From positions 24,016,212 to 24,080,211 of the forward strand of contig NC_054876.1 in NCBI RefSeq assembly GCF_018320785.1: DNA of 64,000 nt, read 5' to 3'. Source of the DNA: Cheilinus undulatus (taxonomy: Eukaryota > Chordata > Actinopteri > Labriformes > Labridae). A program made the position numbers and the translations under genes. The notes below the pieces were generated by a model. It did no database searches. It worked only from the letters and a program-made list of their open reading frames with translations, and was not told where the DNA came from. Positions 1-64,000 of the stretch are shown here, piece after piece (position 1 is the first letter of the stretch; each line of letters starts with the position of its first letter).

Positions 1-203
1 CAGGTGAACAGTGTTTACAACATTAGACAACATACAGACTATGAGGCATGTGTTTCTTACAAAGTGACTGGCTCAGTCTTAAGTGTCTGTGTAGTTTTAA
101 ATCACAGCTCGAAGTAAGTCTTGTCTGTGTTTATAAAAGTGTCAGGAGATGTATAAAGTGTACAGCCAACTGTATGTCACATGCATGTCTGTGTGTGTCT
201 CAG

Positions 204-1592
204 GCTCACATGCAAGCTCGTTTCGTGATCCTGCGTGTCCTGCTGGAGGCTGGGGAGGGTCTGGTCGGCCTGGAGGAAGTGACAGGAAAGGACGGCAAGC
301 CTGACGCTCGAATCACTCTGGACCGCAGCAAGATTCACACTGTGGGGAAGAATGCCATCCACAGGTTCCTTCAGAAACTGCAGGTATGTGTATGTAAAGG
401 TAGAACAGCCAAGACATTAATTAGATTCTTTATAACACTGTAATGTATTTGAGAATACATTTTTAAAATCAAGAAATAGATCACATCTCATTCCTTTAAC
501 AACAAAACCCAAAACTGTAGCCACATTACCATTTGTTAATATGATGAAACAGTTGAGTTACTTAAAGGTGCTTGCTAATAAAAAGATGTTTTTTCAGTGT
601 TTGTCACCAAAATTCGAGTGAGACTAACTGAATTAATTTATGCTAAATCCATTTCCTTTCTGAGAAAAGTCTTCACAATTAAATAATTCTCTTCTGCCTT
701 CCCTTTCTCAGGGAAAATGGCTTTTGTTGATTCATTGTCATTTCCATTAAGTTTCTTTGAAACTACTTGCAGAACTTTGTGTTTCACAAAAATATGTAAA
801 ACAGTTTATGATGAAATAAAACAAAATAATGATGCATTAAAATTGCATCTTAAAGTTGTCAGTGCTGTCATGCAGGGTTTCTGCAGATTATTGAAAAAGT
901 CTTAAATTGGGCTTTTGAAATTTAAGGCTATAAAAAGTCTCAAAGTCTTTATTTAACCTGTTCAAGGGCACTTAGACAGGCTATACTGGTGAATGAAATA
1001 TTGTAACTTGGGAAAGGTACAGAGATTATTATAACACCGTCAATGGCTGTCATGTTAAATGAGTGTAATTACCATCGTTCTCTGTGTGTGCCATGTTTAT
1101 CTTTTCCCTAAGTGCTAACCTGATTTCTTCATATCTTAGGTGTTCAAGTCTACAGCAGATGTGGAGGGAGGTAGAGCAATGTACAATAGCTACTCCGCTG
1201 TCAGTGATGGCGGTGCTTACAACTTCCTTCAACTACGCGAGACAGTGCTGCTGAGGAAAGAGGCTCGGAAGATGTTTGTCCAGGCTAACTCCAGAGTTAA
1301 TGGTATGTAATGGAGGTTGACTTTCTTTGGAGGTAAAAGAATGATGAGCTTTGGAGAGACCTGTTCTGAAGTTACGGAATGTGATTTTACATAAGTTTTA
1401 CAAGTGCTAATTAAGGCTTGTGCGCTGATTCTGACTGCATTGTTTTCAGGTGACAGCGTTGAGCTGACTGAATATGAGGGCAGCGCAGCAGGTTTGATTC
1501 GCTCCTTCACTGAGCGTTTTGAAGAAGACGCAGAGAAGCTGGAGGCCGATCTCCTGGAGATGAGCAAAAGAGACGCCCCCTGCTGGTGTTGA
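204..1592 (+). CDS. dpp3: Dipeptidyl peptidase 3, C-terminal exons (5' part outside window)
   Basis: Three exons, 204-383, 1140-1302 and 1450-1592, join in frame into the last 161 residues of a protein I recognise as DPP3. DPP3 is a mainly cytosolic zinc metallopeptidase of family M49 that removes dipeptides from the N-terminus of short peptides such as enkephalins and angiotensins. The first exon opens with [20 protein letters not shown], followed by the [11 protein letters not shown] stretch. The second carries [18 protein letters not shown] and the third [19 protein letters not shown], all close to the mammalian C-terminal lobe. The zinc motif HELLGH lies upstream of the window and cannot be checked. 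Flanking AG and GT dinucleotides are present at every join, and the phases (0, then 1) agree. The C-terminus is about ten residues shorter than in human. The gene converges on rin1. Confidence 0.93.
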
Positions 1593-1686
1593 TGGGTGGT
1601 CCGTCTGATCCAAAGGCCTCGAAGATATCAATCTGATTTGTTTTTCACTCAGCAAGCAACAGATGAAATAAATGGTTTGTACTTTG

Positions 1687-1692
1687 AATAAA
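1687..1692 (+). other. dpp3: Poly(A) signal of dpp3
   Basis: A canonical AATAAA lies 95 bases after the dpp3 stop codon and is the first one downstream. This implies a 3' UTR of roughly 110-120 bases. A second AATAAA-like run near 1774 could give a slightly longer form. Confidence 0.6.
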
Positions 1693-1714
1693 GCCATAAG
1701 ACTTGTTCAGATCT

Positions 1715-2590
1715 GCCAAAGTTTTCCTGCCATGGTCCAACATCAAATTTATGTTTCTGAAACAAGTTTCGTATAAATAAATGAACTGATAAGTACTTCT
1801 GTTTCTATTGCTATTGAATGCACTTGGGAATCATTTTCTTCTAATGACAAGTACTCAAACAAATAAGATGAATGAATGTGTCTTAATTACTTTCTTAAAT
1901 TCTCCTCAGAAAATGACTGAAAATGTATCAATATTTACTGATAGGTTGACTGTAGACCAGCAGCCATTATAAACTTACTTTAAATGTAAGGCAAAGCAAT
2001 CACCTTTGAGTAAGCTTGATAGAGAAATCACTGATAAAAGCTGACTACAAAATAATGCTGTACAAAAGACATGACTTTAATCTGCACTAATTAAATCTGT
2101 GATGTATATATGTAGTGTCATTTTCTACAAAAAGCAAAGGCTTTTCATTTCATGCTACTCTTTCACAATCACAGTATGATGTTTGGTGTATTTGGATACC
2201 ATGAAGATTTTACTGATGTTTGATTTGAGGCTTGGATTATATGGTATATGTTTAATTGAAGCCTTGATGTCTATATGTCAACATTTCTATAAAAGGAGAC
2301 TTGTTAAATTCCTTGTTTTGATTTATTTGAAAAACATTTGTTATCCAATTTAGATGTGTCTTTGTTATAGTGTTAACACCATGATAATATTGTTTTTATC
2401 TGTATCTTTAATGCAAAACATAGACAGCTTCGAGGCCCTCGGCATTAAATTTCTAAAAAAGCATCTACAGTCAGGTTGGAAGTCAGTCAGAAGACTAGAT
2501 TGTGAGAGAATATGCATTAGAGCAGAATGACTAAATTAGCACCAATAATTGTAGTAAATACAAGCAAAACAACACGTCTTTAGAAAAGTT
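1715..2590. other. Intergenic spacer between convergent dpp3 and rin1
   Basis: AT-rich sequence with no long open frame on either strand, no splice-bounded coding block and no repeat that I recognise. It separates the probable dpp3 cleavage site from the probable rin1 cleavage site. Confidence 0.5.
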
Positions 2591-2594
2591 TTTG

Positions 2595-3761
2595 AAAAGC
2601 TTGTATAATTTTTTATTCGTTCTCAAGGAGCAATAAAGTTTTTCTCTTCTAATGTGTTAAAAATTACAAGCCCATTAACACAAACAAACATAAAAAGTCA
2701 ACACAAAAGCAAAAAAAAAAAAACTTTGCCATTTGCTTCACACTGGCAAGAAATCAAACTGCAGGGGAGGGAGGATCGTCAGTGTTAGGAGTGTTTCTGA
2801 CAGAATTCCATAAAAACAGTTTTACCAAGTTCATTGCAGGCTTGAGTGACTTTTAGAAAAAGTCAAAATATACAAAACTAGTGGTGATCCATAACAGAAC
2901 CCTTTTTTTATAATTCTTTTCCTGCAGAACAACAGAAAAATGCATTTGAAGAGTGTTCACACACATTAAGTACATTTAATTCTCTGCAAATATTTTATGT
3001 TACTCTCATAATTCTACAACTGTTTAGACACTTTCATAATCCATTTGACTGACTTTGTGAAAACAGCAAAAGCATTAACTCTATTCTACTAATGTATGGT
3101 TTGATTGGCAAAAGAGTCATCACATAATGATGGACATGCATGACATTCAAAGAGGAGATGATGTTGTACATAATGTGATTAGCATTTTTTTAAATAATCT
3201 GATTTGGTATGTTCTGTCAGTACAAATTAGATTATTTTAAACAGCTAATCCTGAAACAAAGCACAGTTTTTTCAAACCCTAGTAGGTGGTGTTGACCATC
3301 AAAACTTGACAGAGTTGATAAAAATGGCAGTTCAATGATGCTTCTTGTGTAATGCTAATATGTCATTTGTATATGATTTTTTGGGACACCAATGGATGTG
3401 GGTTCAGTGCTGAGTGATCTGAAGAAAGGACTTCAGCTGATTATTTGCCAAAAATTCTGTGAATTTTGCTAGACAGGGTAGTTTGGAGATAAGATGGTTG
3501 TTGAAGAAAGCACATGAGACAATAACCATACATCAGGAATACCTCTGGTTGAAAAAAGAATTAGGTTAAATGCAGAAAGTGGTGACACCTGGAATGGCCA
3601 GTTTCAGAAAGACTGATTCTAAATTACTCTAACCAGTAGGGCTAAGGAGAAGCATGAATACATCTGCACATCTACCATATTTGCAAAATATATCAACATA
3701 GCTACTCTTTGTTAGTCAATGAAGTGCTTCATAATGAAACAAAAAGTCTAAAATGTGTTCA
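2595..3761 (-). other. rin1: Probable 3' UTR of rin1
   Basis: The minus-strand sequence after the rin1 stop has no open frame of 60 codons or more and no block resembling VPS9 or RA coding exons. The first minus-strand AATAAA is at 2617-2612, giving a 3' UTR of about 1.15 kb. I inferred this from the signal; there is no transcript evidence. Confidence 0.45.
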
Positions 3762-6700
3762 CTACAGGCATGCACCATCATCCTGTTTTTGAGATGAACT
3801 CTCTGCTGTCTCCTCAACCCTAAAAGAAGAACTGCAGTTGTCACTCAGAGCAGCAGCACTCATCTGTAAAACCAGACCGTCCTCTTCCTTCTTGTTTAGG
3901 TCCTCATTTGTTTTCTTTTCATCCACACCTGTTCCCTCCATCTCAGTCTCTCTCTCTTGTCTCAACTGATCTGGTCTTGGAGAAGACACAGGTGTGTGAT
4001 AGACCTGCTCCACCAGGTCAGGGAAAGCTGGAGAGGTGAAGGGAGAGAGTGAGAAGGGGACTTGAGGAGAAGGAGATGGCGACACGGAGGGAGAGGCATT
4101 GGGTGACTCATACGGGGAGAGGGAAGACAGCGCCCTGGGAGAAAGACATGGAGATTGGTAAGGAGAGAGAGAGGGAGACGCACCGGGAGAGTCATGAGGA
4201 GAGAAGGATTGGGATACTTTGGGGAAAATGGGAGGCGCCATTGGTGGGACAGAAGGGGAGAGGTAAGGAGAGAGTGAAGGAGTATGGGAGGTCGTGATTG
4301 TTGAAGGGGGCTGCATGTAGTCTGAGTCCTCTAAAAGGTTCCCCATCACTGGTGGTAGCTGATCTGCAGCCTCCTCGTGCTCCTGCATCTCATTCTGAAA
4401 GAGAGGAGCAGCTGAGGGAGGCTTTGGGCTGCCCTCAGTGGAGCAGTCCTGAATTGTGGGATCAATCTGAGTGTTTTTATTTCCCTGTTTCTGGGCTTTA
4501 CATCTCCCTCTGGTTTTGGGCATTAGAGGAGGTGGAGGAGGAGGAATAAGTGGGGGTGAAAGCAAGGACGATGTCTCTGTGGAAACGCGGACCTTGAGGC
4601 TCCGTTTGAACATGCGCCGTCGGGACAGAGGGTTCTGGGACTGCAGAAAAAGAGGGTTGATGAAACAGAGAGCACCCAGGCCAGAGCCACAGTCCAGCTC
4701 TTGGGGGCTGCGAGTTGTGATCGGACAAAACTCATGAAACAGGGTGGAACCAGGACCAGGTGGTTTGGAGTCTGATTTGGGTGCCGACTCAGAGTCAGGC
4801 TGGGGAGCTGAATCAGGCAGAGCTGTGGAGCTAGTTGGTGGAGCAGCAGAGGGAGGAGCCGGGGTTTCAGGTATGGGTGTCTTCTCCTGGTTTTCCTGTG
4901 ACTGTGGAGCTTCTCGAGGCCCTCGTACATTTAGGTGTGAGTTCCAGAACTCTACAAAATATAAAAGGTTTTCATTTCACCTTTATTACAATGACACAAA
5001 ATAAATCAGCAGTATTATGTCTGTTTATAATGATATGTGATTCTTGTGTACATAAATCAGGCCTGTGTATCTGAGGGTTGAATTACAAAATCTGCAGTGA
5101 GGAAACAGATTTACAGCCACCAACCTACTCCCATATGTGAAATGGACTCCAGCTCTTTGTGGGATGACGCCCTTGCAATAGCTTCAGGAAGCTCCAGAGG
5201 GAAGGGCAGTACATCTCTGACAGAGCAACATTACATCATATCAACACCAACAAGTAACTTAACCTAGACAGTGATTGTTGTAGAATGACAAGGAAAAAGT
5301 GCAAGTCAACAAAGAGTATTTTACATGTAACACCTAAGAAAGGATGATAAAGATCATTTTTACCTGCTGACACAATAGAAGGAAATAAGTCTTGGAAGAT
5401 CTGGAAAGCTGATGGCTGAAGTTTCCAGACACAGAGCTGTGGTCAAGGGGGAAAAAGATGGGTGGTCAGTATTAAATGTGTGGTTTTACTTCATCTGAAG
5501 TATTGTTTTTAAAAGATGGATCTGTGGGAGCTGTGTCAGGAAGGTTACTTTCTAAATAATGTAGGTTTCATGATTACCCTGTTGAAAACTGCAATATGTA
5601 ACCATTACTTTTCCATAAAATGTTCAAAACTGAGGAATGAGCATGAGAAAACTATAACTTTAGGGAGGCTTTAAAATGTAAAAAAATGTTATATATACTT
5701 TTACATGTAAAAAAGAAACCATGTCCGCATCAGAGGGAGAGCAACAGAATGACTTTTACAATCTAAGACAAAGCTTTTATTGATAATGATATTTATAAAT
5801 GTAACCTTTATACTCATCCTCCTTTTGATAAGTAACTATTATCTAATCACACATATTTCCCCCCAACTGTGACATATCAAGATTACTTTTGTTTTCAAAG
5901 TCATTACATTATGTGTTACTATTTGCTCTGCAACACTCATTGAAAATATGAATTTTCAACACTAGCAGTAATTTCCTTCTTCATAAAGCTACATGATTTT
6001 CACCATTTTACAAAGTATACATTATCATTAAATTGATTTCCTGCATAGGCAGCTACTGGTTGCAATTTACTTTTGCAGCTAAAAAACAGAATATCATGTA
6101 AAAGTTATCTTTTCCTGATGTACTTAAAAAAGATAAGCTTCCATAAATTCTAGATTCCTCTTATACAAGGTGAAATATTATAAGAATTTGTTTTAATTTT
6201 GCTGATTAAAGCGTGCAGCTCTTAAAAATCAAAAATCCACTTTCTCAAAATATCAGAAAATTGTGGAAAGGTTGAGTTTGCAAACGTGTCCTGAGCCTTC
6301 ATTATCTCATTCTGGTTCAGTACCAAGGTTATTATGGTTAACTAAAACTAACTAAAGAACTAAAACTAAAATTCAATTAAACTAAGCTTTACCAAAAAAA
6401 CAAAAACTAACTTATACTATATAGTCCGCTTACAAAACTAACTAAAATAAATTAAAAAATAGAGAAAAAATATCCTTAGTTTTAGTCTTTGGCACAACCA
6501 TACTGACTGGCACCTACACCCAAGTCTGGGGAGTGTAAAATGGACTGAATTAATTGGTAAAGACTTCACACAGTGGTAGTTTTATGTCTGGAGTTGTAGT
6601 CAAACAACATCTTATATTTAAAAAAAATTAAGCCTGATTGAATATGTTTCTAAAAATGTATGATGTTCACTCAGGCCCGACACATATCTGCAAAAAACTA

Positions 6701-8741
6701 AAACTAACACTAAAAAGAATAAAAACTGAACTAAAAATGAAGCATTTTTGCAAAATAAAAACTAGAATAAACTAACAACTCAACTCAACAAAACTAATTA
6801 AAATTCCAAAACTATTATAACCTTGTTCAGTGCACGCAACCACAACCACAACCATGGGGAAGACTGCTGACCTGACTCTTGTCCCGACAATCATTGACAC
6901 ACTCCACAAGGAGGGTAAGCCACAGAGAGACATTGCTGAAAGGACCGGCTGTTCTCAGAGGCTGTATCAAAGCTTATTCATGGAAAGTTGACTAGAAGGG
7001 AAAAGTTTTGTAAGAAAAGGAGCACAAGCAACAGGGATGAATTCAGCCTTTAGAGGAATCTTAAACAAAGCAGATTCAATAACTAAAAGGAGCTTTACAA
7101 GGAGTGGACTGAGGCTATAGTCAGTGGATCAAGAGCCGACACATACAGACGGGTCCAAATGAGCTACAAGTATCAAGGTCCTAGTGTTGAGCCACTCCTG
7201 AACCACCCACAACGTCACCAGCGTCTCACCTGGGCTGAGGAGAAAAAGCACTTGACCACTGCTCAGTGGTCCAAAGTCCTGTTTTCAGATTAAACTAAAT
7301 TTGAAATTTCATTTGTAAATCAAGGCCCAGAATCTGGAGGAAGAGCAGAGAAGCACAGAACCCAAGGTGCTTGAAGTCTAGTGTTTTCACAGTCAGTGAT
7401 GGTTTGGGGGTGCCATGTCATCTACTGCTGTTGGTCCATTGTGCTTTATCAAGTCCTGAGTCAACACTGTCAGCCATCTACCAGGAGGTTTTAAAACACT
7501 TCATGTTTCCATCTGCTGAGAAGCTTTAAGGAGATACTGATTTCCTTTTCCAGAAGCACTTGGCACCTGCCAACAGTGAAGCCAAAACAACCAGAACTAG
7601 TTTGTTGACCACGATATTACTTCATTTGATTGGTCAGCCAACTGGGGGAATGTCAAGAGACACCAGACTTAACAATACAGATGAGCTACAGCAACCTGGG
7701 CTACATAACACTCCAGCAGTGCCACAGACTGATTGCACAGATGCAGTAATTTGTGCAAAAGGAGCTCCAACTAATTACTGAGCCATAATTCTCAAGAAGG
7801 CCCTTCTTGAATTATTTTTTTGACAGATTTTTTTTGATATTATAATATTTTGAGGTAATGATTTTTTTTATTTTCCATGACCTGTAAACAGTAATCATTA
7901 AGATTTAAATTTTTAAAAACCACTTTGTATTAGATGATTGTAAAATAGACATTTCACTTCTTGAATTAAATCACAGGAAAAAAAATCAACTCTGGCATGA
8001 TATTCTAACTTTTTAAGATGCACCTGTATTTCCAGTCAGTTAAGCACTGAAGTAAACTTGCTAAGGAACCAGCAATAGTTATTTCATTGTTTATTAGTTG
8101 ATAATAAAAAGGCTGTTAACATTATGAAATGTAAATTTGTATTGGAAAGCACTGTGCGAGTTTAGTTATTGTGAAGTTAATCAGTTTTGTGCCTTTGGAA
8201 ATTGTTTTATTTGGGGAAACCAAGTAATCTCTTATTTTAATGTGTGTCTAGAGTCATGTAATTGTCCTCACTTTTACTGGAGCTCTCCTCCCTGATGCCA
8301 AACTGCTGAACAAAGGATGGGACGCTGTCATCTGCCAAACGGACACACAGGACATTCCTTTGGGATGTGCGAGACTTTCGCACTAGGAAGGTCTGCAAGA
8401 CAGCATAATTAAATCAGGACAGAGAGGGCAACAAAGGTATCCACTACAGTTCTATTTTCTGATATACAGATGAGTATACACGGGGTTAAACCATGGGTTT
8501 TGTGAGCTTTTTGTTTTGAAGTGTATGTGGCTCTGACCCCAGGAGGCTCCCTCTGGAGTATGTGGAGTGCAGTGGCAGGGTTGATTGACAGCTGGAGCCA
8601 AACAGGAACAGTGAGCAGGAGACGGTCCAGCACACTGATGCTCCTCAGAGATCCTCTGCTTCTTTGATGCCCCATGAACTTACGCTGTGAGGGCTTGGTG
8701 GGCTCTGGAAAATCATAGAGAGGTTCTTCCTGCTGTGCCAT
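3762..8741 (-). CDS. rin1: Ras and Rab interactor 1-like protein lacking VPS9 and RA domains
   Basis: Five minus-strand exons (8741-8538, 8392-8272, 5436-5364, 5216-5125, 4951-3762) join in frame to 559 residues. Residues about 49-145 form a RIN-type SH2 domain: VPVWLQL, then TFLVRKSRT with the phosphotyrosine-pocket Arg at 73, then SFPDLPRLISFYC. LYDFPE near the N-terminus and MFKRSLKVRVSTETSS at residue 277 closely resemble human RIN1. The rest is proline-rich (IPPPPPP), followed by about sixteen Ser-Pro pairs at 389-471 and an acidic end. RIN1 binds activated Ras and ABL tyrosine kinases and is a RAB5 exchange factor through VPS9. That domain and the RA domain should follow but are absent here. 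The ATG at 8741 follows an in-frame TAG and a possible splice acceptor, so a 5' UTR exon probably lies upstream. The alternative is another RIN paralogue, but the KVRVSTETSS block favours RIN1. Confidence 0.82.
6325..6824. mobile_element. Non-autonomous AT-rich element nested in the Tc1 copy
   Basis: Five hundred bases begin AAGGTTATTATGG and end with the near-inverse ATTATAACCTT, so the termini are imperfect inverted repeats. The interior is built of ACTAAAACTAA-type runs, a composition I know from a common fish repeat. GTTCAGT occurs immediately outside both ends, consistent with a short target duplication of about 8 bp. It contains no open frame. Confidence 0.55.
6854..7781 (+). pseudogene. 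Broken Tc1-like transposase
   Basis: From the ATG at 6854 the frame reads MGKTADLTLVPTIIDTLHKE and then the helix-turn-helix stretch KPQRDIAERTGCSQ, typical of Tc1 transposase N-termini. Farther on, the nucleotide sequence continues to match the family through the DDE region down to a TGA near 7781, but the frame is broken by several stops and small gaps. No intact transposase is encoded, so the copy is presumably immobile. Confidence 0.7.
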
Positions 8742-11112: not shown

Positions 11113-11751
11113 GTAAGAAGTCTGAATAGCTAGTATTCTCACAATATTGAATGCTTTTCCTGCATAGGGTTCATAAGGAGTAAAGGAAACACTATAAAAC
11201 GGTGTAGTTTTATCTTAAAACTACAGTGGAGCTCTTGTGCAAGAAGTAACTTCCAGCCGCTGTGTTCAAGATAATACGTTAGCCAGCTAGCTTAGCTAAC
11301 GTTAGCTACATTGCTAATGTTTGCATCATAATAGCCAGCTATATTAGAGTTAAAGCTCTCTTTGGGTCGCCCTATTAGCCCACAGCGTTACATACAACGA
11401 CTTTCTGGTAAAAACAAACTGTTAGTACATCGTTTTTAAACACTTTTTACATTGCGTGTGGGTTTACATATGTTTGCTAAGGAATTGAGCAGGTAGCTAA
11501 GCTATACCGACTACCTGTAACTTAATTGGATCGATTTTCGCCGCGAAAATTCAAGGTTTAATTTGTTTAGATGATAGTAACAGAGTATCTGGCAACCATC
11601 AAATACTTACTTCTCAGTATACCTAACTGGCTGTAACATACAAATTAACTTAAATTATTAATACTGACACGATTCGGGTATAGGATAAGGATAGGCAATA
11701 TAGAGAATTTGACAAAGCTTGTGTTTACTTTTTTTTTGGTTTATTTTGCAG
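11113..11751 (+). other. rbm14: 5' UTR intron of rbm14
   Basis: Bounded by GTAAGAAG and a T-rich tract ending TTTTGCAG. It contains a GCTA-rich patch around 11278-11340 of the kind seen elsewhere in the window. I see no coding sequence. Confidence 0.45.
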
Positions 11752-11763
11752 ATGTCTGGTTGA
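11752..11763 (+). promoter_or_regulatory. rbm14: Three-codon upstream ORF in the rbm14 leader
   Basis: Directly after the AG acceptor, ATGTCTGGTTGA encodes Met-Ser-Gly-stop. Four bases (AGAG) separate it from the main ATG at 11768, which also begins Met-Ser-Gly. If this acceptor is used, ribosomes meet this start first, so the uORF could reduce translation or force reinitiation. Confidence 0.45.
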
Positions 11764-11767
11764 AGAG

Positions 11768-14462
11768 ATGAGCGGTGAGAACGTGAAGTTGTTTGTGGGG
11801 AACCTTCCTATAGATGCAACACAGGATGAGCTCAATAAGCTCTTTGCCCCGTATGGAGAGATCAACACATGCTCTTTGCTCAGACAGTATGCCTTCGTCA
11901 CCCTGAAGGGAGAGGGGGCAGCTGACAGGTATTCTACTCTCTGTCACTAGTTTTCCAGTGGAGGGATAAGAAGCTTTTCAAGAAATATTTATGTACATTG
12001 AATATTAAAAACATTTTACAGTAGTCTGCTTTTGACATAGAAATAGCAGTGAGAACTTTATTTAAGTACATCTTTCATGCACATAATTTAAATGTGTTTC
12101 ATGTGTTGCTGGTAGAAAATTAAAGCCCGTCAACGATCTGTAGTATGTAAAACAAATATATAACTTGAACCATGTCTTTTAGGACTTCAAAATGTAAATA
12201 TGAGTTTATTTCAAATGGTAAATCAAAGCACAAGTTAAATTCTCTAAGCCTAAATTTGATAGCCTTGTTAAGTTGAGCTGTTGAGTATCATAACAAAAAC
12301 GTTTCATTTAATTTGTTCTTATAGGGCCATAAGGCATCTAGATGGTAAAGAGTACAGAGGCAGGCCCCTGGTGGTTGAGGAGTCCCGTGCACGCCCACCC
12401 AACTCTACTAAAGTTTTTGTGGGAAACCTCAGTGCAACATGTTCAGCAGATGACCTGCACGGGCTTTTCTCAACCTTTGGAAGAGTTTTAGACTGTGATA
12501 AAGTCAAAGGTGAGAAGGAGTACACACATTCCTTACACACACAAAGTAACAATACTAATTTTCTATTAGTGTATTTTCTTTATTAAATTAATTTTTATGC
12601 TAATATGGCTTTCCCTGCAGCAAGATTATGTTCCAATGTTGGCTATGCATTTGTGCATATGGAGAGAAAGGAGGAGGCCCTTGCAGCTATTGAGGCACTC
12701 AATGGGACCATGTACAAGGGCCGTCAGCTGGCAGTGGAGCTGTCCAAAGCCCAACCTTTGATCAATCAGATTGTAACTACTGGTAAATAACATAACTTAT
12801 GAGGGTGAAGACAAGCCATCCACTTAAGTGTCTTGTGCATAATTTAACTCTGAAAACAACACAAATCTATTTTCTGAGCATGTTTGTCTGTTTCTGTTTC
12901 CTTATAGGTGGCAGGGAGGGTCTTCTCCCACGACCACCTCCATCATTAGAGCATCACCAGAGTCAAGCAGCCGTTCTAGCAGCAGCTGCAGCAGCCGCAG
13001 CTGGACTACCCATTCAAGTTTGTGAATTATTTTATAAAACATTAAAAAATCTTTTTAAACAAGATTTGTAGTTATACGTGTGTTCAAGGGGTTTTAAATG
13101 CTGATGTCTTACTGATTTTTGCAGGTTCAACAAAGTGTCCATAATTCATTCTACAACACCACATCTTTTGATCCAACATATGCCGCTCTGAAGGGAATTA
13201 CAAGCTCTAAAGGTGCCGATGGTGTGATATACGGTGCTCTGGCCAGTCAGGTGTATGGATCTGTTGCTGACCAGGTGTACCATGATATAACAAATCACAG
13301 TGCTGGATCCAGTGTTGTTCCTGAAGAAGTAGAACCCCAGACTGCACCAGATCCAACAACCCTTTTTGAGGCAGCAAGAGCCAAGTTCTTTCAGGAGGGA
13401 CAGAAGGTTATTGTGCATTTCTTTTATGCATATACATATTCTTCTTCTTATATATTTTTGTTGTGTTGTACATTTTTATGTGTATTTACTGGCACATCTT
13501 TGAATAAAGGTTCTGGCAGAGCAGCAGGCTGGGAGGAAGGCAGCAACTACAGAAAATGAGCGAGACCGCAGCCCAATCAGGGGTAACAGAGCCCCGCTCC
13601 TACCTGACCCTGTACCAGGTTCCTTCGCTCAGATAAGACCCAAACGCCGCGCCCTGCTGCCAACACCACCTGGAGTGCCTGAAGAGTCGGCGGCTGCAAC
13701 CACTGCACCTGAAGGGTCAGATCCTGTAGCTAGGTACACTTAATGCTTTTTGATATTTGATGGAGACAGGAAAAAGAGCACGTCAGTCCTGCTTTCACAT
13801 GTAATAATATTTAAGATCTGTTGCACAGTTGAGAGTTAGAGAGGGCTATAGTTCAGAGAACAATGATCTTATATGACTGTGTAAGGTTAATGAATTAGGA
13901 AATGTCTCTGATGTGATTTTGAGACTTATTTAGCTTTACTTTTGTTTTATTTCTTCTGTCAACTCAATGCAGGTCGTATTCAGAGTACTACCAGCAAATG
14001 CACCAATATCAACAGTATCAGCAGTACCAGCAACAGTACCAGTACCTCCAGTATGCCTACACCAATCCTCCTCCTCCTCCACCACCTCCTCCTCCCCAAC
14101 CAGCCACCACACAGCCACAGGCCTCCACTACAGTACCGGCACCCCCAGGGACGTACACTGCACCTCCAACCTATGCTGCATCAAATGCCTACCCACCACC
14201 GGGAACATATGACGCTTCTGGAGGGTACGACACCTCATCTGGGAGCTACACTGCTTCATCCGGGAACTACGATTCCTCGTCAGGAAGCTATGACACATCC
14301 GGAGGCTACAGGGCAGCAGGAGCATATGATTCATCGGGAGCTTACGCAGCAACAGGAAGCTACTCCGCATCCACACCGTATGAGCAGACACCCGCACACG
14401 GGCAACCCATGCCCCAGCGCAATGATTACCCTTACCACACGCCAGAACCCCCTTATCGATAG
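11768..14462 (+). CDS. rbm14: RNA-binding protein 14-like (two RRMs and a Tyr-rich prion-like tail)
   Basis: Seven coding exons (11768-11928, 12325-12509, 12621-12782, 12908-13017, 13125-13406, 13510-13733, 13973-14462) join in frame to 537 residues. RRM1 covers about 7-73, with RNP2-like LFVGNL and RNP1-like YAFVTL. RRM2 covers about 83-156, with VFVGNL and GYAFVHME. The RRMs belong to the RBM4/RBM14 group. No CCHC zinc knuckle follows, which excludes RBM4. An Ala tract lies near 194-201, DRSPIRG resembles the RBM14 tail, and residues from 376 are QY-rich, then a ten-Pro run, then Tyr/Ser/Gly repeats. RBM14 (CoAA) is a nuclear coactivator and paraspeckle protein whose YxS repeats drive condensation. 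The donor after exon 4 (CAA/GTTTGT) and the acceptor of exon 6 are weak but keep the frame. Which teleost paralogue this is (rbm14a or rbm14b) cannot be decided. Confidence 0.85.
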
Positions 14463-62393: not shown

Positions 62394-64000
62394 CTACACA
62401 ATATCCAGTACCCAAACATTACTTTCAAGAACCGCATTGAATTCTGAGCGGAAATCTGGAAAGTTCTCTTAACTCTCTGCTATTTGCAGAATCTTCCCAC
62501 ATGTGTGTCCGATTGGTCTTCTTGTGAATTCTGACATTTCCATAGATTCCATGGATGCTGTCTGTAACTATGAAATCAGATCCTGTGCAGAACCTAAGAA
62601 ATTTTTGAAGTTTAATTTCATCAAGCTCTCTGATGAATCTTTTCAGATGGTTCCCCACATCCTTTTGGTTTGGAGTTAAATCATCATCAAACTTTAGGAG
62701 TCGACAAACCTTTTTTGATGTTGGTTGCAAGTCAGAGACCAACTTTGTCAGGTCATCTGGACTGAGGGAGAGATGACGAAGGGTAATCTCCCTCCAGCAG
62801 TCAATAACAAATATCGGCTTTTGGACGAGCTCTTTGTGTGCAATTTCATCAAGGATTGGTGTGAGATTCTCATCAGAAATTCTCCTCCTGCAGTCATAGC
62901 CTCTGAGAACTTCCAGGAGACCATCAGCATCAGCTGTGGAGAAATCACTCATCGCTTGCTTCAGAACTTCACATTCTTGGCTGCTCACGAACTGCAGGAA
63001 ATGTGCTTTAAGATCACTATACACACAGCTGAAAAGCACCTGCTCAAGGAAGGGCAATGAAAGTTTGTTTGGCAAATACTGACAGTCACAGTAACCTCTC
63101 AAAAGGACTTGGCCAATTGCCTTACATTTTTCTGCTGAAAAATCATGGCGAATTAAGGACACATTAACTGTTGCACCAAGTGTGCATCACTTGTGGAATT
63201 CCTGCCAGAAGCAGCTGAGAACATCTCTCAGTATCCCAGATCCAGTGCCTGCTTCTTCTGGTGTTGTCTGGAAGGATGCATTTCACATTGAGCACTTTGT
63301 TCAAAATCTCTGCGTCAGAGAAGGCAGTAATCATGTCATTTAAAGTGTTGCCACGATGAATAGTTATTGTTATCACATTGTCTGAAAGAGATGGACTGGC
63401 AGGAATAAGAAACTCCTCGTAGATCAGTGTGTCGTCTTGGTTATCTTCAATGTAGTCAAGTGGACCAAAGGTAACTTCAGAATCAACACAAAATCGACAC
63501 ATCTGGAGAAGGTTGGGGTTGATCGGCATCATCGATGACATCTCCTGTTACCTGCTCTGCTGTACTAATTTCACTGACACTGGTTGCTGAGACAAGGATC
63601 ACTTCAGATACATTACTAGCATTTTCGTCAATTTCTTTTGGCTTGGTTGCAACAGCGTAACATCGTCAGCTTCGCAGCCTCGTACATGGTGCCGATGGAA
63701 TGGCATGTTTCATCTGTAAGGCAGTTCTGTTTAAAGTTCCATACCTCAAACTCAAAGTCTAAAACTGATCCTTTTGGTGATACTCCGTCAGGAAAGAGAA
63801 GTTTCTTTCCCTCCTGAAGTACATCTTTTAATCCAGCATCAATTGCGAGCTTAATTTTTCTGGTGCCACCTCCCTGCTTCACCCTCACCTGTTTGGCCAA
63901 TTTTCATCTCTGTGGATCCATCCAATTTCCACATTTGGTGTCGTTTTTATCTTTTTTTCTTTTTTGGCTGTGTTGTACTTGTGTCTTCTTTTGATGTGGT
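62394..64000 (-). pseudogene. Broken G2E3-like HECT ubiquitin ligase, 5' end outside window
   Basis: Minus-strand fragments in several frames line up, in order, with the multicopy 'G2/M phase-specific E3 ubiquitin ligase-like' proteins of fish. They are: VEIGWIHRDEN; QGGGTRKIKLAIDAGLKDVL and LLFPDGVSPKGS; SEVTFGPLDY; ITIHRGNTLNDMITAFSDAE; ILRDVLSCFWQEFHK; VSLIRHDFSAEKCKAIGQVL; and LQKFLRFCTGSDF followed by HTCG, the HECT C-lobe with its Cys codon at 62501-62499. HECT enzymes pass ubiquitin through this Cys. The frame changes near 63940, 63650, 63490, 63265 and 62550, with stops at 63189-63187 and 62471-62469. It is therefore not translatable as one protein. No introns are evident, so a retrocopy or a transposon-borne copy is possible. 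Confidence 0.75.

Follow-up and report, generated by a model that had tools for sequence, protein, structure and literature searches.

A rin1 copy of Cheilinus undulatus without RH, VPS9 and RA domains keeps ABL-type motifs and may divide the labor of RIN1 with its paralogue

The two outputs of RIN1, ABL kinase and RAB5, are coupled in one protein. A preliminary description of one stretch of Cheilinus undulatus DNA reported a rin1 gene that appears to end before the VPS9 and RA domains. We analyzed the whole stretch of 64,000 nucleotides (C12:24016212-24080211; hereafter the window) and searched the genome that contains it (1.17 Gb, 46 contigs). The window rin1 lies on the minus strand and consists of five exons whose introns are all GT-AG and whose in-frame splicing gives 559 codons. 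The gene and its surroundings comprise the following features:

1..1592, plus strand: 3' exons of dpp3, the convergent neighbor (Pfam peptidase M49)
1593..3761: gap of 2.17 kb between the rin1 stop and dpp3, in which no RH, VPS9 or RA sequence was found
2612..2617, minus strand: poly(A) signal AATAAA of rin1
3762-3764, minus strand: stop codon of rin1
3762..4951, minus strand: last coding exon, with the EFW, FINPLF and FKRSLKVRVSTETSS signatures, the Pro-rich tract and the SP/YxxP tail
3975..4328, minus strand: SP-rich tail segment, with YxxP at Tyr375, 393, 428, 444 and 481
4518..4556, minus strand: poly-Pro tract PPLIPPPPPPLMP following FKRSLKVRVSTETSS, a candidate ABL SH3 ligand by analogy with human RIN1 (PMC4374917)
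5125..5216, minus strand: coding exon 4, with the post-SH2 RIN signature DVLPFPLELPEAIARASSHKELESISHMG
5364..5436, minus strand: coding exon 3, SH2 (in-frame splicing, Pfam)
8272..8392, minus strand: coding exon 2, SH2 with FLVRK (in-frame splicing, Pfam)
8538..8741, minus strand: coding exon 1, with the start codon, PLYDFP and the SH2 start (acceptor ..gtgtgtag before the ATG, donor gtcagag)
8706..8723, minus strand: PLYDFP motif with Tyr9 (motif search)

This gene structure is solid, and the window rin1 is a clean coding gene. As the preliminary description had it, the five exons encode an SH2 domain (residues 53-129, Pfam E 8.1e-6) and a tail rich in proline and Ser-Pro, and the last exon is open down to the stop at 3762. 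None of 2000 shuffles of the 245-codon tail in this exon was free of stops (mean 9.3 stops), and the other two sense frames of the tail contain 6 and 14. The poly(A) signal and the dpp3 gene on the opposite strand also lie where they had been placed, and the 3' UTR of rin1 presumably covers about 2.6-3.76 kb of the window. A further coding exon may lie upstream of exon 1. The preliminary description named a segment missing from the assembly as a refuting finding; the window holds no N, and the 20 kb to its left contain a single stretch of 84 N. Elsewhere in the window, a Tc1/mariner-like transposase remnant (MGKTADLTLVPTIIDTLHKEGKPQRDIAERTGCSQRLYQSLF...), identified by eye, sits in the large rin1 intron (6821-7781, plus strand), and the minus strand at 62428-63547 holds two open frames (253 and 127 aa) that overlap; the longer one matches HECT weakly (Pfam E 9.2e-4, which does not reach the curated cut-off).

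The protein combines the SH2 domain with the RIN post-SH2 signature, a feature of the RIN family, and matches the rin copies on contigs C22, C4 and C6. Specifically, its first 319 aa returned 10 matches in the genome at E<=0.01 (five in the window gene itself, two on C22, one on C4 and two on C6), with identities to the window exons of 60 and 71% on C22, 45% on C4, and 46 and 48% on C6. We provisionally take the copies on C4 and C6 to be rin2-like, the copy on C18 rin3-like and that on C2 rinl-like, and we label as rbm14-like a gene in which Pfam shows an RRM only. This rbm14-like gene adjoins rin1 (window 11684-14459, plus strand) and contains a tyrosine/glutamine-rich stretch; outside the window it matches best at C22:24.536 Mb, some 175 kb away from the rin1 copy of that contig. 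The dpp3 search gave three matches, all in the window, and no second copy at E<=0.01. The identities and the rbm14-like neighbor favor descent of the window gene from rin1 over rin2, rin3 or rinl, and they fit a duplicated block in which it and the C22 gene would be the two copies of rin1. The duplication is probably that of the teleost genome, a date that we infer. In cavefish, rin1a and rbm14a are listed together among the genes of one QTL, and the gene annotated rin1a has a variant at residue 768, so that it is long enough for full length (PMC8139031).

The C22 copy is the paralogue with an exchange half whose existence the preliminary description had guessed. Joining seven exons gave an N-terminal model of 481 aa. 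Pfam places SH2 in this model (22.0 bits, cut-off 21), as well as the RIN1-like domain PF23268 (1.5e-17), which we take to be RH. For comparison with human RIN1, here and in all outgroup motifs, we relied on a provisional human sequence whose numbering agrees with five published residues. The C22 exons match it in order before and in VPS9 (tblastn 1.4e-8, 3.2e-8, then 0.010); an RA-like exon matches weakly (tblastn E 0.046) and is missing from the Pfam RA list. Double mutation among the RIN1 residues D537, P541, Y577 and T580 is reported to lower exchange activity (PMC8963869), and the C22 copy keeps the counterparts of all four. We also note that two introns interrupt the C22 rin1 (C22:24345761-24351770) at places where the frame of the window, C4 and C6 copies is continuous, apparently intron gains in one duplicate.

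The window protein matches no Pfam family besides SH2 at E<=1, RH (PF23268), VPS9 and RA included; its last 318 aa match no family at E<=10. In addition, we used RH, VPS9 and RA profiles made from this genome's own rin copies and the provisional human RIN1; these include the C22 copies, so that high C22 scores arise partly by construction. As a control, the C18 copy was kept out of the profile for RH, which gave it 25.3 and 19.3 bits, and out of that for RA, which gave it 12.5 bits. Across the six frames of 1600-3900, the best scores were 0.8 bits for RH, -3.7 for VPS9 and -2.0 for RA; the best of 60 single-base shuffles reached 1.6, 1.4 and 5.3 bits, with 95% points at 0.1, -0.4 and 0.1 bits, respectively. 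The RH score exceeds its 95% point but comes from a plus-strand match over 12 positions. The earlier statement that the remaining ~2.1 kb hold no VPS9 or RA exon is borne out by these scores. A VPS9 remnant in the rin1 3' UTR was rejected, its score lying inside the shuffle range, and LQMSAAALSD in the tail, which resembles human RSMSAAF, was rejected as a remnant of the RH start because the RH profile has no match on the tail; the RA profile scores 0.0 bits there. When the profiles were run over 84 kb (the window and the 20 kb to its left), nothing scored above -2.0 bits, and VPS9 or RA exons left of dpp3 or in its introns were rejected on this basis.

The genome as a whole has 23 Pfam VPS9 matches at E<=10, and 14 when the threshold is E<=0.001. 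Neither any of these 23 nor any of the 33 Pfam RA matches at E<=0.1 falls in the window. Ten of the VPS9 matches lie in five other rin-family loci, and another 11 belong to loci that reach no more than 59 bits in any single piece on the RIN VPS9 profile and that we judged non-RIN; the other two (E 3.4 and 6.3, below the cut-off) stand outside this sorting. On the RIN VPS9 profile, the match at C9:2.93 Mb does not exceed -5.1 bits. Within this sorting, an orphan RIN-type VPS9 elsewhere was rejected, since the non-rin loci score at most 59 bits as single pieces, and near most of them a tblastn search with the window protein (stretches of 3.1-16 kb) found no SH2. No RIN structure was recovered from the PDB, where all 34 matches of the window protein at E<=1 were SH2 proteins of other families, among them SRC, FYN, GRB10/14, SOCS2 and CED-2 (best E 0.0098). 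Together, these searches confirm that the window rin1 is without RH, VPS9 and RA and keeps the SH2 and Pro-rich half; the preliminary description was right about VPS9 and RA and had omitted RH, which is lost as well. It had read the product as a phosphotyrosine- and SH3-binding adaptor, and the SH2 domain and Pro-rich tract support that reading.

Going beyond that description, we found ABL-binding motifs and a YxxP tail. The window protein carries PLYDFP at Tyr9 plus FKRSLKVRVSTETSSLLSPPLIPPPPPPLMP (STETSS..PPLIPPPPPPLMP). We take Tyr9 to be the counterpart of Tyr36 in human PLYDVP, according to a provisional alignment whose register fits the published Y36. Both ABL-activator features of the RIN1 type, a Pro-rich SH3 ligand and a PLYDxP tyrosine, are present in the window copy as sequence motifs. 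In mammalian RIN1, a proline-rich motif is described as binding the ABL SH3 domain, after which Y36 is phosphorylated, and RIN1 then binds the ABL SH2 domain and relieves autoinhibition (PMC4374917). The C22 counterpart of exon 1 has 15 residues before SVLDRLL and no PLYDxP-type tyrosine; across 70 kb of C22 the minus-strand frames contain no [PLVI]Y[DE]xP, and those of roughly 29 kb upstream of the SVLDRLL exon no Y[DE]xP. A PLYDxP coding exon of C22 may be split by an intron or lie more than about 29 kb upstream. The FKRS exon of C22, FKRSMRLRLSESSMNLSLEGIGSYSPPTSLD, aligns with the window copy but is without the Pro tract, and the C22 model (481 aa) has 2 PxxP starts compared with 16 in the window protein (559 aa), whose Pro-rich domain is present. 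The losses in the two copies thus look complementary, with the window copy lacking the exchange/RAS half and C22 lacking the ABL motifs as searched.

Six of the seven tyrosines of the window protein are in YxxP, including all five within residues 171-559. This 5/5 was reached in 1 of 20000 whole-tail shuffles and in 8 of 20000 shuffles of the 118-aa SP-rich part; three of the five belong to related SPYxSP units whose DNA contains degenerate repeats, so that these shuffles overstate independence. Tandem repeats as the origin of the tail were rejected, as Tandem Repeats Finder reported only a 12-nt unit repeated 2.6 times (4252-4282) and a GAG run. Among linker tyrosines, YxxP accounts for 0/2 on C6, 0/2 on C4 and 0/1 on C2, and for 2/2 on C22 and 1/1 in the provisional human RIN1; the latter two mean that YxxP is not special to the window copy. 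No linker of the C18 copy was found. YxxP may be an old rin1 habit, expanded in the window copy. The tail also contains 24 SP/TP dipeptides, and a long SP-rich tail of this kind is unlike the other rin copies. The SH2 domains of CRK and CRKL have phosphorylated YxxP as their consensus, and such motifs are described as substrates of FAK, SRC and ABL (PMC5043372). With this tail, the window copy may also have gained a Cas-like platform for docking.

Over the 129 codons of the SH2 block, the window and C22 copies share 65% identity, with dN 0.24 and dS 1.57; dS is near saturation and averaged over both lineages, and is thus no proof of selection after truncation. With the provisional human RIN1, the window block shares 75 of 129 residues. 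Using this human sequence as outgroup over the 129 columns, changes unique to one copy number 4 for the window copy and 14 for C22, which is suggestive of slower SH2 change in the window copy. On 51 of these sites, those covered by the rin2-like outgroups, the counts for window and C22 were 4 and 5 (C4 as outgroup), 5 and 2 (C6), and 4 and 3 (human). Slower change was not repeated there, and because these counts differ from the 129-column result we do not lean on a rate asymmetry.

We propose, with a probability of about 0.55, that labor was divided after the duplication and that in this one species the window copy is a RAB5-independent adaptor of the ABL arm. This is the simplest account of the complementary losses. 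By losing RH, VPS9 and RA, the window copy would have become a 559-aa SH2/Pro-rich adaptor, presumably expressed, that most likely has inherited the ABL arm from ancestral RIN1. The poly-Pro tract of this protein would dock on the ABL SH3 domain, ABL would phosphorylate Tyr9 in PLYDFP, and the phosphorylated Tyr9 would hold the ABL SH2 domain, relieving autoinhibition. The protein's own SH2 domain could bring the ABL complex to phosphorylated receptors, and the YxxP tail could provide further ABL/SRC sites and docking for CRK-type SH2 domains. RIN-type RAB5 exchange and RAS binding through an RA domain would be missing, and the C22 copy would keep the exchange arm without the ABL motifs. More tentatively, and at clearly less than even odds, we speculate that ancestral RIN1 was split in the fish lineage into an exchange factor for RAB5 that lacks the ABL switch (C22) and a RAS- and RAB5-independent ABL activator that doubles as a Cas-like multi-YxxP scaffold feeding CRK (the window gene).

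The closest competitor, which we nevertheless consider unlikely, is a dominant-negative role, in which the truncated protein takes phosphotyrosine and SH3 partners from full-length RIN1 and so damps RAB5 activation. The intact FLVRK of the window SH2 and the presence of a paralogue with the exchange half are in line with it, but that paralogue yielded neither PLYDxP nor the Pro tract; the two copies should thus no longer share those partners, which leaves mainly SH2 competition, and the window copy may antagonize C22 in this way. For the same reason, division of labor fits better than antagonism. A decaying gene, its function killed by the truncation and its frame surviving by chance or recency, is less probable again: three of the five family domains are indeed lost, but the tail is stop-free over its 245 codons where shuffles average 9.3 stops, every splice site is GT-AG, the SH2 block keeps its 75 of 129 identities with the provisional human RIN1, and no downstream RH or VPS9 remnant was found of the sort that a recent truncation might leave.

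Still fainter is the prospect of a neofunctionalized SP-rich protein of another pathway, with the SH2 and ABL features as relics. The long SP-rich tail and its SP/TP dipeptides would suit it, but PLYDxP, SH2, FKRS..STETSS and the Pro tract are all kept. Least probable are hidden domains, encoded by VPS9/RA exons reached through unusual splicing or by a segment missing from the assembly. An assembly of 46 contigs need not be complete, but the window is free of N, dpp3 directly adjoins, the 84 kb yielded nothing, and 21 VPS9 matches are placed in other rin loci (10) or in loci judged non-RIN (11).

If two genes do split the outputs of RIN1, each arm could be removed singly in vivo without engineered mutants, and the pair would be a domain-level case of subfunctionalization after genome duplication. 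Among the matches listed for open-licence literature (titles and beginnings of abstracts), none reports a VPS9-less rin1 gene. With mammalian RIN1 (SH2-PRD-RH-VPS9-RA; provisional human sequence), the window protein has in common SH2, the post-SH2 signature, PLYDxP, FKRS..STETSS and the Pro-rich tract; it differs in being without RH, VPS9 and RA and in having the SP/YxxP tail. A natural RIN1 splice form without residues 429-490, described as missing 61 residues at the VPS9 start, has no RAB5 exchange activity and still binds RAS weakly (PMC8963869), which provides a precedent for a RIN1 product without exchange activity, whereas the window gene is without the whole C-terminal half at the gene level. 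RINL is, like the window gene, a reduced RIN-family member, but it is described as a RAB5 exchange factor without the Pro-rich domain, and the window gene is the reverse (PMC8963869). With the CAS family (p130Cas/BCAR1), the window protein shares the combination of several YxxP motifs with a signaling domain; it has 6 YxxP rather than 15, SH2 rather than SH3, and no FAT-like domain (PMC5043372), and Pfam at E<=1 finds neither the N-terminal SH3 nor the C-terminal FAT-like domain of CAS in it. The likeness to the CAS family is one of working, not of descent.
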